From assembly GCA_947504725.1 (NCBI GenBank), contig CANNHN010000016.1, positions 1 to 37,154 on the forward strand: DNA of 37,154 nt, read 5' to 3'. Made by a program: the position numbers and the translations under genes. The notes beneath the pieces are model-generated. The model did no database searches, was not told where the DNA came from, and saw only the letters and a program-made list of their open reading frames with translations. This stretch comes from Bacteroidota bacterium. GTDB lineage: Bacteria; Bacteroidota; Bacteroidia; 2-12-FULL-35-15. Positions 11,408-31,529 of the stretch are shown here, one piece after another (the first letter of the stretch is position 1; each line of letters starts with the position of its first letter).

Positions 11408-12958
11408 ATGTCTAACGTTAAAACAGAGCATTTATTTAATCTTATTCACTCTCTTTCAAAGGGGGAAAAACGTTTTTTTAAAATGTATGCTGCACGACTG
11501 AATAATAGTTCAGATAAAAAATATATCGTTTTGTTTGATGCGATTGAGAAACAGAAAGTATATGATCAAGACAAAATTTTACACAAGAACAAACAATTAA
11601 ATCCTGCTCAGTTTTCAAATCTTAAAGCGCATCTATATTATCAACTACTAAAAAGTACAAAGCTTTGTAATAGTTCGAATCTGGAGAATATTAAAATTAC
11701 TGAGCTGTTAGATTATGCCCGAATCCTATACAACAAATGCTTGTACAAAGAGTGCGTAAAAATGATTGATAAAGCCAAAGCGATGGCTCTAGAGAACGAT
11801 CGCTCGGTTTTGCTGTTGGAAATTTTGGAGTTGGAAAAGTTGGTTATTCCCAAAACATTAGACTCAGGAAACGAACAACGGGTTGGCGTGTTGATAGATA
11901 CTTCCAATCAAGTGGCAGCCAGCATTAAAAACATTAATATCTTTTCCAATCTTTCGTTGAGATTAAATGCGCATTATGTGCAAACTGGATTCAGTAGAAG
12001 TAAAAAGGATTTAGAAAATGTCAGTCGTTTTTTTAACTCCAGTTTACCTAAATACAAGGAAGTAGATTTATCTTTTCAGGAAAAGATGTACCTCTACTAT
12101 TCTTTTGTAGGGTATTATTTTTTTATACAAGATTTTGTCAAGGGCTATACGTATGCAAAAAAGTGGGTAGCCTTGTTTGATCAACAACCTGAAATGAAAC
12201 GGCATAAGCTGGAATTGTATATTAAATCCCTAAATAGTTTACTGGCCGTTCAGAATAAATTGTACAAATACGAGGAGTTTGCCGAGACACAAAAAAAGTT
12301 GATTGCAATCAAAAGGGATAAGTCGCTCGAGCTTACTGAGAATATTAATCTGAATTTATTTAAAGCCATTTATGTGCATGAAATTAATCGTCATTTTATG
12401 TTGGGCGAATTTAAATCGGGGACTCGAATCGTTTCCGCTTTGGAATTTGAATTTAATAAGTTCGTCCCCAAACTTGATAAACATTCGATTTTGTTATTTT
12501 ATTATAAGATTGCTTGTTTGTACATCGGTAGTGGGAATTATAAGGTAGCTATCAAATGGTTAAACAAAATTTATAATGATAAAGAAAGTGATATTCGAGA
12601 AGACATTTATTCTTTCACTAGAATTTTGTTACTTGTTTGTCATTTTGAATTGGGAAATGACTATTTGTTGGAATCTAATATTCGTTCATCCTATCGTTAT
12701 TTTACTAAAAAGGGACAGTTGAGTCGTTATCAGAGAAATATTTTAAATTTCTTGAAGTATTTATTTGTTGATTCCTCTGAACGAAATCTGAAGAAGCAAT
12801 TCATTCTTTTAAAAAATCAAATGCTGTTGTTGGAGCAAAATAAATATGAAAAACGAGAGTTTCTATATTTTGATATTATTTCTTGGTTAGAAAGTAAAAT
12901 TGAGAATCGATCAGTACAAGAAATAATTAAAGAAAAAGCGAGAAAGAAAATTGTGTAG
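11408..12958 (+). CDS. Helical-repeat (TPR-like) protein of unknown function
   Basis: This 516-residue protein has no signal peptide or membrane segment, so it is probably cytoplasmic. It begins with a conserved-looking block, LIHSLSKGEKRFFKMYA, followed by paired amphipathic helices in which Leu, Tyr, Ala and Lys recur with tetratricopeptide-like spacing (LYNKCLYKECVKMIDKAKAM; YIGSGNYKVAIKWLNKIYND). I know similar proteins as uncharacterised Bacteroidota families but cannot assign a role. It is a single-gene unit, divergent from fabH and convergent with rodA, with only 2 nt between the two stop codons and no terminator between them. The transcripts therefore probably overlap at their 3' ends. 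Confidence 0.65.
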   Translation: MSNVKTEHLFNLIHSLSKGEKRFFKMYAARLNNSSDKKYIVLFDAIEKQKVYDQDKILHKNKQLNPAQFSNLKAHLYYQLLKSTKLCNSSNLENIKITELLDYARILYNKCLYKECVKMIDKAKAMALENDRSVLLLEILELEKLVIPKTLDSGNEQRVGVLIDTSNQVAASIKNINIFSNLSLRLNAHYVQTGFSRSKKDLENVSRFFNSSLPKYKEVDLSFQEKMYLYYSFVGYYFFIQDFVKGYTYAKKWVALFDQQPEMKRHKLELYIKSLNSLLAVQNKLYKYEEFAETQKKLIAIKRDKSLELTENINLNLFKAIYVHEINRHFMLGEFKSGTRIVSALEFEFNKFVPKLDKHSILLFYYKIACLYIGSGNYKVAIKWLNKIYNDKESDIREDIYSFTRILLLVCHFELGNDYLLESNIRSSYRYFTKKGQLSRYQRNILNFLKYLFVDSSERNLKKQFILLKNQMLLLEQNKYEKREFLYFDIISWLESKIENRSVQEIIKEKARKKIV

Positions 12959-24647: not shown

Positions 24648-27600
24648 TTAATTGATAATCGGTTTTAGTTTCAGAATAGCATCATCAATAGATTTGATGT
24701 TTTCAAATGTTAGACTAAGTTTTCCATTGTTCTCTTTCATTTTGCAAGCGCGTCCATTATGTTGTACAAACTTTAACACTTTTGTAAATGTTTCACTTTG
24801 GTAATAAGGTGATTTTTGGTTTTGAAGAAAGTAACCAACCATGCGGTTGTTTTTTAAAATCAATTTTTCAAACCCAATTTCCATGGCTAGCCAGCGCAAA
24901 CGAATGGTGTGAATTAATTCCAATGCTTGTTCGGGAACGGGGCCAAAACGATCTTTTAGTTGTGCTTCAAATTTTGTCAATCCTTCTTCGGAAAAAGAAT
25001 CATCCAATTCTCTGTATAAATTCAATCGCTCCGTAATGTTGTTTACGTAATCATCTGGAATTAATATTTCCATATCGGTGTCGATCACACAATCGGAAAT
25101 ATATTGACTATGTTGCTTCTGAGTGTATTTTTGAGAACCTCCAACATTCGTGTCGCGCAACTCTTCATGCTCCATTCGCAATTCCATAATCGCTTCATCC
25201 AGAATTTTCTGATACATCTCAAAACCAATCTCGTTGATGAAACCACTTTGTTCACCACCCAATAAATTTCCTGCACCACGAATATCCAAATCGCGCATTG
25301 CTATGCTAAATCCACTTCCTAAATCTGAAAACTCTTCAATTGCTTTTAATCGTTTGCGTGCTTCGGGAGTTAATAAGGAAACTGGAGTAGTTAATAAATA
25401 ACAAAATGCTTTTTTGTTGGAACGTCCAACTCGTCCGCGCATCTGATGTAAATCACTCAAACCAAACATGTGTGCTTGGTTGATGATGATTGTATTCGCA
25501 TTGGAAATATCTAATCCTGCCTCAATGATTGTAGTTGCAACCAATACATCAAATTCTCCATCCACAAAATCCATCATCACTTGCTCTAGTTTATCGCCTT
25601 CTAATTGTCCGTGCCCAATTGCTACTTTTGCATCCGGACATAGTCGTTGAATCATGCCAGCAACTTCCATAATATTCTGTACGCGGTTGTGTACAAAAAA
25701 TACTTGTCCGCCTCGAGAAATTTCGAACGATATAGCATCACGAATAATTTCTTCATTAAATGTATGTAGTTCTGTTTGTACGGGATAACGATTGGGTGGA
25801 GGTGTATTGATGACCGATAAATCACGTGCACCCATCATCGAAAATTGCAGTGTCCGCGGAATTGGAGTAGCTGTAAGTGTTAGCGTGTCAACATTTGTTT
25901 TGATGGTTTTTAATTTGTCTTTTACACCAACGCCAAATTTTTGTTCTTCATCAATAATAATTAATCCAAGGTCTTTGAACTTTACGCTTTTGCCTACAAT
26001 GCCATGTGTGCCAATTAAAATATCTACTTTTCCTTCTTCAACTTTTTCTAATGTTTCTTTTTGTTGTTTTGCGGAACGATAACGATTGATGTAATCAACA
26101 TTACATGGCAAATCTTTTAAACGTTCTTTAAATGTTTTAAAATGTTGCAATGCAAGAATGGTTGTTGGAACTAAAATAGCCACTTGTTTGCTGTCACTAA
26201 CTGCTTTGAATGCAGCACGAACGGCAACTTCCGTTTTCCCAAATCCTACATCTCCGCAAACAAGTCTGTCCATTGGCCATTCACTCTCCATATCTTTTTT
26301 TACATCAGCCGTAGATTTAATTTGATCGGGAGTATCTTCATAAATGAAAGACGCTTCTAGTTCGTTTTGTAAGTAGGTATCCGGACTAAATTGAAAACCT
26401 TTTAATGCTTTTCGTTTAGCGTAGAGCTGAATTAAGTCGTAAGCAATCTCTTTTACTTTTTTCTTGGTCTTTTGTTTTAATGTTGCCCAAGTGTTTGTTC
26501 CGAGTTTATTTATTTTTGGTTCAGCTCCTTCTTTGCCAGAATATTTTGCAATGCGATGTAAGGAATGAATGCTGATGTTTACAATGTCATAATCTTTATA
26601 AACCAATCGAATGGTTTCTTGCGTTTTTCCATTTACTTCAATGGTTTCCAAACCGCCATAACGACCAACACCATAATCAATGTGCGTGATGTAATCTCCT
26701 GGATTTAATCCTTTGAGTTCTTTTAATGTAAGTGCTTCACTCTTTTTAGAAAAGCTACTTTTTAAACGGAAGCGATGATAACGATCGAAAATTTGGTGAT
26801 CGGTATAACAAGCCAGTTTTAAGTCGTTGTCGATAAACCCTTCGTGAAAAGGAGCCCAGCCTTCCACAAATGGAAGTGGAGCAGATTCTTTTTTTACTCC
26901 TTTCCCAATGTCTTCAAAAATAGCATAGAGTCGTTCAACTTGTTTGTGATTTTCTGCGAAGATGATATTCTCATACCCGTTTTTTGTATTCGCATTTAAG
27001 TTGTCTAATAAAAATGTGAAATTTTTAGAAAAGCTTGGTTGCGGAGAAAAATTGTAGGTAATTGTTTTTGTGGGCGACAATGAAAAATGATTTCCAAATT
27101 CAACCAAAGGAAATCCCAATGCTTGTTTGCTGAAAATGTCTTTGTGAATGTAAAGTTCATCAGGTGGCAATTGTTCAATCACTGATTCTAGTTTATTGAA
27201 ACAGGTTTCTGCTATTTCAAATGCTTTTTCAATTCTATCAAGAGTTAATTGAAAATGCTTGAACCAAATGACAGAACTTTCTGGAATAAATTCAAAAAAT
27301 GTTTGTCGGCTTTCTTGTAGAAGTTTGGTTTGCACATTTGGAATGATGTTGCAGAAAGCAACTTTGTGAACCGATAATTGAGTAGTAGGGTCAAAACTTC
27401 TTATAGAATCCACATCGTTTCCTAAAAACTCAACACGATATGGATATTCATTAGAGAAAGAAAAAATATCTACAATTCCACCCCGCACAGAAAATTGTCC
27501 CGGCTCTACAACATAATCAGCACGTTCGAAACCATATTCATTTAAAACGTCAATAATAAACTCGATGGAAATTTTTTCACCTTGTTTTAATGCTAAAGTA

Positions 27601-28022
27601 TTTTTAGTAAGATGTGTTTTTGTAACAACTTTTTCTGTAAGTGCTTCAGGGTAGGTAACAATACAAATGTGTTTTTTACCAGTATTGATTTTATTCAATA
27701 CTTCGGCACGCAATAAAATATTAGCGTTGTCAATTTCTTCGTGTTCGTAAGGCATGCGATACGATGCAGGAAAGAACAACACATTTTGCTCGCCCAATAA
27801 ATTTTCTAAATCGTTAAGAAAATAAGCTGCTTCTTCTTTATCAGGAAGAATAAATAAATTTGTTTTGTGAATGTGTTGATAGGCCGCAGCGGAAATGAAA
27901 GAAGCTCCTGAACCGATGACGTTTTTTAGCTGAACGCGCGTAACATTCCCAGCCAATTCTTGAATTAGTGAAGAATTGTTAGTTGACTCTCCGTACTTGA
28001 TTAAAACATCTTCCTTCGTCAC
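24648..28022 (-). CDS. mfd: Transcription-repair coupling factor
   Basis: Mfd is an ATP-driven translocase that removes stalled RNA polymerase and recruits UvrAB. In order, the sequence shows the UvrB-like N-terminal part (residues 1-330), the RNAP-interacting CarD-like domain (LNPGDYITHIDYGVGRYGGL, about 445-510), the helicase core with Walker A CGDVGFGKTEV (about 590) and motif II DEEQKFGV, motif III TLTATPIPRTLQ, motif VI QMRGRVGRSNKKAFCY, and a TRCF C-terminal domain (about 985-1085). The 1124 residues are close to the E. coli length. The only in-frame start is the GTG at 28022. A stop codon lies 6 nt further upstream, so no ATG form is possible. Downstream is the J-KTSC gene; upstream is the fbp terminator. 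Confidence 0.95.
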   Translation of the reverse strand: MTKEDVLIKYGESTNNSSLIQELAGNVTRVQLKNVIGSGASFISAAAYQHIHKTNLFILPDKEEAAYFLNDLENLLGEQNVLFFPASYRMPYEHEEIDNANILLRAEVLNKINTGKKHICIVTYPEALTEKVVTKTHLTKNTLALKQGEKISIEFIIDVLNEYGFERADYVVEPGQFSVRGGIVDIFSFSNEYPYRVEFLGNDVDSIRSFDPTTQLSVHKVAFCNIIPNVQTKLLQESRQTFFEFIPESSVIWFKHFQLTLDRIEKAFEIAETCFNKLESVIEQLPPDELYIHKDIFSKQALGFPLVEFGNHFSLSPTKTITYNFSPQPSFSKNFTFLLDNLNANTKNGYENIIFAENHKQVERLYAIFEDIGKGVKKESAPLPFVEGWAPFHEGFIDNDLKLACYTDHQIFDRYHRFRLKSSFSKKSEALTLKELKGLNPGDYITHIDYGVGRYGGLETIEVNGKTQETIRLVYKDYDIVNISIHSLHRIAKYSGKEGAEPKINKLGTNTWATLKQKTKKKVKEIAYDLIQLYAKRKALKGFQFSPDTYLQNELEASFIYEDTPDQIKSTADVKKDMESEWPMDRLVCGDVGFGKTEVAVRAAFKAVSDSKQVAILVPTTILALQHFKTFKERLKDLPCNVDYINRYRSAKQQKETLEKVEEGKVDILIGTHGIVGKSVKFKDLGLIIIDEEQKFGVGVKDKLKTIKTNVDTLTLTATPIPRTLQFSMMGARDLSVINTPPPNRYPVQTELHTFNEEIIRDAISFEISRGGQVFFVHNRVQNIMEVAGMIQRLCPDAKVAIGHGQLEGDKLEQVMMDFVDGEFDVLVATTIIEAGLDISNANTIIINQAHMFGLSDLHQMRGRVGRSNKKAFCYLLTTPVSLLTPEARKRLKAIEEFSDLGSGFSIAMRDLDIRGAGNLLGGEQSGFINEIGFEMYQKILDEAIMELRMEHEELRDTNVGGSQKYTQKQHSQYISDCVIDTDMEILIPDDYVNNITERLNLYRELDDSFSEEGLTKFEAQLKDRFGPVPEQALELIHTIRLRWLAMEIGFEKLILKNNRMVGYFLQNQKSPYYQSETFTKVLKFVQHNGRACKMKENNGKLSLTFENIKSIDDAILKLKPIIN

Positions 28023-29700: not shown

Positions 29701-31017
29701 ATGAAAGTTTTCAAATTTGGCGGAGCATCAGTTAAGGACGCAAACGCTGTAAAAAATGTAGCAGAGATTTTAAAGTTATTTCCAAAAGAAAATATTTTGG
29801 TGGTGGTTTCTGCTATGGGAAAAGTTACCAATGCATTGGAACGTTTGACAGATGCTGTGTTTTATCCCGAATCGAAGTCCGGGACAGGTAAAAAAGAAGA
29901 TGCAACAAAAGTTTTAGCGGAAATAAAAAAATATCATTTTGATATTATTGCAGAATTGTTCCCTTCAAAAGATCATCCGATTTATAATGAAATTAACAAC
30001 ACATTTGTAGAATTAGATTGGGCAGCTGAAGACGAGCCGACTGAAAATTACAATTATGAGTACGATAAGATTGTAAGCATGGGTGAAATACTTTCTACAA
30101 AAATTGTACAGGCTTATTTAAAAGAGGCTGGATTAAATAGTATGTGGAAAGATGTTCGTGATTTTATTCAAACAGATAATACCTATCGTGAAGGAAAAGT
30201 AGATTGGGAGTTGACACAAACTTTAGTAAATGAACATTTAATGACCGCTATCAAGTCCCCCTTTGAAGGGGGCAAGGGGGATGAAGGGAAGATCATCGTT
30301 ACTCAAGGATTTATTGGCGGCACATCTGAAAATTTCACAACTACTTTGGGAAGAGAAGGGTCCGATTATACGGCAGCCATATTAGCATATACAACCAATG
30401 CAGAAAGTGTGACCATTTGGAAAGATGTTCCAGGTGTATTGAATGCCGATCCGAAGTGGTTTGATGAAACGAAGAAGCTTGAACAGATTTCGTATCAAGA
30501 TGCAATTGAGTTGGCTTATTACGGAGCGACTGTTATTCATCCGAAAACAATTAAGCCGCTACAGAATAAAAAGATTCCTTTGTTGGTAAAATCGTTTTTG
30601 AATCCATCAGAAAAAGGAACAGTCATCAATGAAGTACAATCACCCTTGCCGATTCCGTGTTTTATCTTTAAAGTGAAGCAGGTTTTGATTTCTATTTCTC
30701 CGAAAGATTTTTCATTCATTGCGGAAGACAATTTCAGCGACATCTTTAATCTGTTTTCAGAAAAACAAGTGAAAGTAAATGTGATGCAGAATTCAGCAAT
30801 TAGTTTTTCAGTGAGTGTGGATGCTGATGAACGTAAACTTCCTGATTTAATCAAGACGCTTCAGAAACAATATAGAGTATTGTATAATGACAATCTGGAA
30901 TTAATTACGATTCGTTATTACGATCAAGCGACTATCGATAGGGTAATTATTGATAAAAAAGTGTTGTTGGAAGTGAAGAGTAGGTATACTGTTCAGTTGG
31001 TTGTGAAGCCGTTGTAA
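29701..31017 (+). CDS. lysC: Aspartate kinase with in-frame repeat insertion
   Basis: The enzyme phosphorylates aspartate at the head of Lys, Thr and Met synthesis. The kinase domain has KFGGASV (residues 4-10), VVSAMGKVTN and TTLGREGSDYTA (near 219). The regulatory ACT region begins near 325 (VLISISPKDFSFI). Length 438 residues. Residues 185-196 (KSPFEGGKGDEG) look like a translated copy of a mobile palindromic repeat, placed between LMTAI and KIIVTQGF, where relatives normally run through without it. The frame is kept. It is monofunctional: no homoserine dehydrogenase domain follows. Start ATG at 29701. Confidence 0.92.
   Translation: MKVFKFGGASVKDANAVKNVAEILKLFPKENILVVVSAMGKVTNALERLTDAVFYPESKSGTGKKEDATKVLAEIKKYHFDIIAELFPSKDHPIYNEINNTFVELDWAAEDEPTENYNYEYDKIVSMGEILSTKIVQAYLKEAGLNSMWKDVRDFIQTDNTYREGKVDWELTQTLVNEHLMTAIKSPFEGGKGDEGKIIVTQGFIGGTSENFTTTLGREGSDYTAAILAYTTNAESVTIWKDVPGVLNADPKWFDETKKLEQISYQDAIELAYYGATVIHPKTIKPLQNKKIPLLVKSFLNPSEKGTVINEVQSPLPIPCFIFKVKQVLISISPKDFSFIAEDNFSDIFNLFSEKQVKVNVMQNSAISFSVSVDADERKLPDLIKTLQKQYRVLYNDNLELITIRYYDQATIDRVIIDKKVLLEVKSRYTVQLVVKPL
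30253..30287. repeat. Palindromic repeat inside lysC (CCCCCTTTGAAGGGGG type)
   Basis: CCCCCTTTGAAGGGGG (near 30257-30272) followed by CAAGGGGGATGAAGG is a C/G-rich palindrome unlike the AT-rich coding sequence around it. It matches a well-known dispersed Bacteroidota spacer repeat and is here read in frame as KSPFEGGKGDEG. Confidence 0.7.
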
Positions 31018-31025
31018 AACGTAAT

Positions 31026-31529
31026 TTAGTAATGGAATTGATGGGTAATTCTCTTGACATTACTAATACCTACGTTGTATCGTAGTTTTACTTTCAGAAA
31101 AACCGGAAATCGAGAGGTGAATTGATTAAAAAGGTTGAAATATTGTGTTCGATCCCCATTGCGCACCCGAATGGGGGATTTTTCTGAAAAGGGAAGTCCC
31201 CTTTCACTTTCAATATGAAGCAATGAGCCTAGGGATAGGCTATTCGCAGAAACAATTTTATTGATTGTTGGTGTTCGATAACCCTCTTTGGAAGCGGTTA
31301 AACACCCCGGAAATATAGACTTTAAAAAGCCATGCTTATCTTCAATTGGTGCTATGTTATATAAGTAATTCAGATCAGTTAGGTAATCCAAATTGTCATC
31401 ATATAGTTTCGATAGATGTTTGTTGTTTTGAGATAACTGAGCAATTTCAATGGAATGTTTATTCAATTTATAGGTATATGTTTCATGCCATTTGCTATAT
31501 GTTTTATCGTCTACTTTGTTAGCTTGCTA
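31026..31529 (-). pseudogene. Second large serine recombinase remnant, C-terminal part
   Basis: The longest start-bounded reading begins at a TTG (31466), but the frame continues upstream to an in-frame TAG at 31527-31529, and those extra codons (KVDDKTYSKWHETYTYKLNK) belong to the recombinase coiled-coil. This shows a truncated gene and not a new one. LDYLTDLNYLYNIAPIEDKH and EGYRTPTINKIVSANSL match the C-terminal segment of large serine recombinases of Bacteroidota. The catalytic and zinc-ribbon parts are absent. The opposite strand carries a lysC terminator candidate within the same bases (31152-31184). Confidence 0.65.
31152..31184 (+). terminator. Candidate terminator downstream of lysC
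   Basis: ATCCCCATT and AATGGGGGAT (one bulged G) enclose a 9-nt loop and are followed by TTTTTC on the plus strand. It lies 134 nt after the lysC stop and overlaps the recombinase remnant. Confidence 0.45.

Follow-up and report, generated by a model that had tools for sequence, protein, structure and literature searches.

A short interspersed palindromic repeat carried in frame in a turn of a Bacteroidota aspartate kinase, a turn also filled by an unrelated palindrome family

Reports of palindromes translated in frame within proteins exist for Rickettsia and Wolbachia and, under the name of intragenic REPs, for several bacteria. The aspartate kinase gene of a Bacteroidota bacterium (assembly GCA_947504725.1, contig CANNHN010000016.1), contained in the stretch of 37,154 nucleotides analysed here as a whole and hereafter called the window, raises the question of whether a G/C-rich palindrome within it is an inserted copy of a dispersed repeat and, if so, how it came to be carried there. 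The initial annotation had placed a mobile palindrome, translated in frame, at residues 185-196. The analysis leads to the reading, which we hold to be very probable, that the insert in LysC belongs to a short interspersed palindromic repeat, is read in frame and is carried as a near-neutral passenger in a turn of the protein, and that such turns are refilled by different repeat families.

The host gene is identified as lysC by its matches to PF00696 (E=2.4e-42) and to TIGR00657 (259.8 bits, above the curated cut-off of 208.7) and by the kinase fold of its product, which matches 2j0w and 3c1n; together these place it among the aspartate kinases. The insert (Table 1) is read through the codons TCC CCC TTT GAA GGG GGC AAG GGG GAT and, as the spacer between its G runs is 3 bases long, the repeat unit measures 27 nt, a multiple of three. 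Because the inserted unit comprises nine residues, S186-D194, the range first proposed was right in place and slightly too wide, while the presence of a palindromic repeat in frame inside lysC is confirmed by the 27-nt unit, by its copies elsewhere in the genome and by clean gaps in relatives. The unit has a GC content of 63%, against 36% in lysC and 34% in the window. When up to 3 mismatches are allowed, the core CCCCCTTTGAAGGGGG has three matches in the window, namely the LysC site on both strands and one further site at 11450, with 0.07 expected and none of 100 shuffles reaching three; AAGGGGGCAAGGGGGATG has a single match, with 0.00 expected. Downstream of lysC, at 31154-31205, two other short G/C palindromes, CCCCATT..AATGGGG and GAAAAGGG..CCCCTTTC, were seen by eye and lie outside the pattern of the repeat family described below.

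Table 1. Positions of the host gene, the inserted repeat and a neighbouring site in the window
Feature	Position	Strand	Remark
lysC, aspartate kinase, host gene	29701..31017	+	438 aa
Inserted 27-nt palindromic repeat, read SPFEGGKGD (S186-D194)	30256..30282	+	Clean gaps in relatives; other copies in the genome
Palindromic core CCCCCTTTGAAGGGGG	30257..30272	.	0 mismatches at the LysC site
3-base spacer CAA and second G5 run	30273..30280	+	
Codons of helix 169-185, insert-bearing turn and strand 198-202	30205..30306	+	AlphaFold model
Neighbouring ORF, Mfd by eye, with empty type-B site	24648..28022	-	Counterpart in G002 filled

Further copies, which the initial annotation had suggested looking for, are present in the source genome (G000; 3.4 Mb in 43 contigs, 99.63% complete), including one that is read in frame within a different long ORF: the 16-mer CCCCCTTTGAAGGGGG occurs there in seven exact copies and the pattern CCCCCTN{2,12}GGGGGN{1,4}GGGGGA in 23, with none in either reversed control. 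Searches at the family, order and genus level returned one identical set of 36 genomes, 24 of which match this pattern, here called type A, with counts that sum to 290 (58 in G009, 38 in G027, 23 in G000, 21 in G034, 17 in G016, zero in 12 genomes); the reversed control of the genus-wide search gave one match altogether, in G027. Type A consists of C5-T-N5-G5, a spacer of 2-3 bases and a second G5, and its intergenic form, of about 37 nt, usually starts with CGGAGC. In comparison with cggAgcaTGTCCCCCTTTGaAGGGGGCAGGGGGAtGA, the consensus built from 41 short copies outside coding sequence, the copy in LysC corresponds to the core without the CGGAGC start, and in it the spacer CAA replaces CA. 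With a length of 20-40 bp, palindromic form, repetition and a mostly intergenic location, type A is a REP in the broad sense of the term. No exact match to two forms of the repeat was found in viral contigs, and blastn with 35 bases gave no match in plasmids. Separately, a tandem array of the repeat was observed at G009:C66:22765-23034, where four copies of CCCCCTTGGAGAAGGGGGCTAGGGGGA lie exactly 81 bases apart.

LysC covering the loop is present in 34 of the 36 genomes, and in seven of these a palindrome lies exactly in the turn. Five are of type A (G000 and, in addition, G027, G001, G034 and G016), and two, in G002 (+ strand) and G010 (- strand), belong in opposite orientations to an unrelated family, type B, at the same place as the insert of G000. 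Alignment with relatives, proposed at the outset as the way to recognise an insertion, gives a clean gap in G003, G009, G032 and G028 (88-92% identical); the residues are therefore not common to all relatives, yet the four other type-A carriers do have a version of the insert, which in G027 is eroded. Between G003 and G027 the difference is exactly nine codons, and in this 27-nt difference a duplication is not evident, the flanks having diverged. Among 80 named LysC loci an insert of this kind was found in two, L066 and L071, which by their contig positions correspond to G034 and G002, and no such insert was found in 18 LysC loci fetched from other genera, several of them chosen for length; a class-level search gave LysC matches in at least 254 of 395 genomes, those of the same genus included. 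In G034 and G016 (L043/L044) a further in-frame stretch of 24 nt with CCTGTCCTGAGCTTGCCGAAG sits inside the type-A palindrome of LysC, and no second copy of it occurs in the loci searched. Longer LysC loops that match no repeat family are found in G022 and G026; a third family, tentatively built on the 15-residue insert of G022, was rejected when a search of G022, G018, G008 and G000 with up to 3 mismatches found only the insert itself.

The type-B family, a CTCTCC/GGAGAGG palindrome of the form CCCTCTCC..GGAGAGGG.GGGG, occurs in 28 of the 36 genomes (overlapping matches being counted twice in the match list), and 8 of 30 copies sit in long ORFs. The Mfd-like ORF next to lysC in the window is seven residues shorter than its counterpart in G002 (L322) at a type-B palindrome. 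It was also observed that this copy in G002 lies about 1.6 kb from the lysC of that genome, itself a type-B carrier.

LysC is one of several proteins that carry type A. Out of the 290 copies, 145 distinct ones were examined (23 from G000, 32 from genus-search loci and 90 in stretches from G002, G003, G009 and G016), and a copy was taken as a coding candidate when its ORF extended at least 45 codons to either side. Of the 20 candidates, two were dropped, L155, which has no NCBIfam match, and L239, in which the insert precedes the likely start codon (by eye), leaving 18 of 145 copies that are read in frame within long ORFs with matches to known families. Their hosts include LysC, HisRS (G002, G016), LeuRS, IleRS, an IscS-like cysteine desulfurase and ThiC, and also a MurF-like protein, GcvP, PyrF, a PabB-like enzyme, a RecB-like helicase and others. 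The matched family stretch spans the insert in 13 of the 18 (in L022 at a score under the cut-off, and in L276 through its match to HisRS) and does not in L157, L168, L219, L230 and L247. L022 is the other in-frame copy of the source genome mentioned above, in a FAD-oxidoreductase-like long ORF at G000:C2:448046, for which no alignment with solved structures runs through the insert. Against solved structures the insert leaves a gap whose length is 10 residues for HisRS, 9 for IscS and 11 for ThiC, and in LeuRS no clean gap is seen against 1h3n. The LeuRS gene of G016 (L272/L334) was observed to hold two palindromes, one of type B (NTLSFGEGRGEAF) and one of type A (SPFEGGKGD).

Repeated filling of one site is found in HisRS too. 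Among 30 HisRS loci, G002, G016 and G034 are filled at one site, 26 lack the insert, and that of G026 is attributed to no family. In the HisRS tree, which is poorly supported in large part, G002 groups with G030 and G005 (99), and G016/G034 with G000, G027, G028, G032 and G033 (81); the HisRS site is filled in two lineages. At roughly one and the same turn of a SpoIIE-like protein (identified by eye), G010 seems to have a type-A and G012 a type-B palindrome.

How often the LysC turn was filled depends on how its history is read. From the family and orientation of the palindromes it follows that there were at least three acquisitions. Several carriers have an empty sister, G003 for G027 (support 99), G024 for G001 (99 and 98), G030 for G002 (96) and G006 for G010 (100), while the position of G031 next to G034/G016 is weakly supported; since the empty G003 is sister to the filled G027 in both trees, one has to suppose either a precise loss or parallel gains. 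One alternative holds that type A entered LysC a single time, at the base of the clade of G000, G001, G003, G009, G016, G024, G027, G028, G031, G032 and G034, and was then precisely lost. The type-A fillings share one codon boundary, G000 and G027 have common flanks and the empty G003 is nested beside G027, all of which would fit such a history. At equal cost, parsimony counts six changes on both the nucleotide and the protein tree; when a gain costs three times a loss, the nucleotide tree prefers the ancestral insert with losses by one step (13 versus 14) and the protein tree ties. The account nevertheless requires losses in G003, G009, G028/G032, G024 and probably G031, and leaves unexplained the two oppositely oriented type-B fillings and the filling of HisRS in two lineages, and we regard it as rather unlikely.

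Spacer length differs between coding and non-coding copies. Among 54 copies of the short palindrome, coding and non-coding cases number 6 and 1 for a spacer of 3 bases, 4 and 41 for a spacer of 2, and 1 and 1 for a spacer of 4; for 3 versus 2 the Fisher test gives p = 6.7e-5, a value on the optimistic side, as part of the copies are inherited in common and so are not independent. The complete 27-nt unit, searched across the genus with up to 3 mismatches, has 14 matches in 8 genomes and none in the control; nine of the ten with up to 2 mismatches are coding, L361 being the non-coding exception, and none of the four with 3 mismatches is. All 27 bases of the LysC unit match copies in the HisRS, ThiC and LeuRS genes of other genomes. 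The nine coding matches are all read in one frame, as SxxEGGKGD, with five of the six frames of the unit open, and the probability of a single frame by chance is 6e-5, a naive figure for seven gene-and-lineage sites and equal frames. As the frame used is the most polar one, selection on the peptide can explain the bias. A bolder idea, tentative and in our judgement unlikely, is that the 27-nt form with CAA constitutes a distinct coding lineage that would pass from gene to gene in sense orientation and without exception in the frame SPFEGGKGD, its mechanism favouring permissive turns of expressed genes, the landing turns being shared by unrelated families.

The interspersed repeat proposed here resembles several known systems. 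Rickettsia palindromic elements (RPEs), given as about 105-150 bp in length, are reported both in intergenic DNA and as in-frame fusions to conserved proteins that are unrelated to one another (PMC2229807, PMC10969869). Type A shares with them the in-frame presence in unrelated conserved proteins, and differs from them, as they are described there, by its length (a 27-nt coding unit and an intergenic consensus of about 37 nt), by its Bacteroidota host genus and by the two unrelated families in one LysC turn; the comparison with Rickettsia made initially thus stands as an analogy in mode of action and fails as a statement of membership. REPs tagged GTAG/CGTC are described as palindromes of 20-40 bp, mostly intergenic with a minority in genes, whose intragenic hosts include polymerase, repair and tRNA synthetase genes and, in the recB of two Xanthomonas species, different REPs at about one site (PMC3733652). 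Unlike these, as there described, type A has neither tag in its consensus, occurs in a genome (G000) in which no associated RAYT gene was found, has a spacer variant of 3n length that is mostly genic, and recurs at the same site in LysC and HisRS within one genus. In-frame fusion to genes is also a feature of MITEs with open reading frames, which are small non-autonomous repeats (PMC2229807); type A is much shorter, and neither target-site duplication nor pairing of terminal repeats with a transposase was demonstrated for it. In sum, type A works like RPEs and intragenic REPs but without their length or tags. No published mention of SPFEGG or CCCCCTTTGAAGGGGG, and in titles and abstract openings no report of in-frame palindromes in Bacteroidota, was found in a literature search with most subscription papers outside its reach.

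The size and palindromic form of type A, together with matches to PF01797, the RAYT model, in 29 of the 36 genomes, would also suit a REP mobilised by a RAYT. This is quite improbable, since PF01797 has no match in G000, G016 and G034, all rich in copies, and the consensus lacks the GTAG tag; moreover, 11 of 12 fetched RAYT loci are without the C4/G4/G4 motif, and the twelfth holds a type-B-like repeat.

In the AlphaFold model of LysC (35 sequences, mean pLDDT 91.4) the insert lies between helix 169-185 and strand 198-202, in agreement with the loop position first assigned to it, and the pLDDT is 75 for residues 181-190 and 76 for residues 191-200. The strand that follows leads into QGFIGG and GREGSDYTA. 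Solved aspartokinases are without the insert, and 2hmf shows a gap of 9 residues at the same place. A second loop of LysC whose length varies within the genus, at residues 55-67 (29863-29901), was also observed; its residues 59-62 have a pLDDT below 50, and no palindrome is attributed to it. The enzyme had been called essential, which is not established because G000 also contains a second, putative aspartate kinase (L366, on contig C3; 446 aa, 31% identical to LysC).

Such a turn might also hold the insert for a function, be it an influence on the allostery or stability of the kinase or a slowing of translation by an mRNA hairpin. Recurrent filling of one turn and the strong same-frame bias would fit selection as well, but the eroded version in G027, the precise absence in close relatives and the unrelated peptides of G002 and G010 speak against it, and the hairpin is not unusually stable for its composition (z-score of the DNA fold -0.86, with 38 of 200 shuffles folding equally well or better), so that a function is very doubtful. 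Finally, that an ordinary variable loop expanded and came to resemble the repeat by chance is hardly credible, since, although the length of the LysC loop varies across the genus and the class and a second variable loop lies at residues 55-66, it is contradicted by exact copies over 27 of 27 bases and by a chance expectation near zero.

We therefore return to the near-neutral passenger. A dispersed palindrome family would spread through the genomes of one Bacteroidota genus, mainly into intergenic DNA, by means of a putative copying enzyme, and a copy that keeps the frame on landing in a gene would add a short, Gly-rich, polar peptide and leave the gene unbroken. In LysC the 27-nt copy would add SPFEGGKGD to the turn between helix and strand, and the filled enzyme, if the peptide is indeed produced, probably tolerates it, still folding and working while the copy persists as a near-neutral passenger. 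As few turns would tolerate an insert, those of LysC, HisRS and perhaps the SpoIIE-like protein would be refilled by other families and in other orientations. The simplest account would be that copies insert anywhere and that strong purifying selection then spares the intergenic ones and the few in-frame ones in tolerant turns; neither transposition nor excision nor a target-site duplication was observed.

With one turn filled by unrelated palindromes and empty in sister genomes, the choice between chance tolerance and favoured insertion becomes countable, in terms of which loops accept nine foreign residues, how frequently and in which frame. The type-A repeat explains odd SPFEGGKGD-like strings in annotated proteins, and cautions against reading them as functional motifs.
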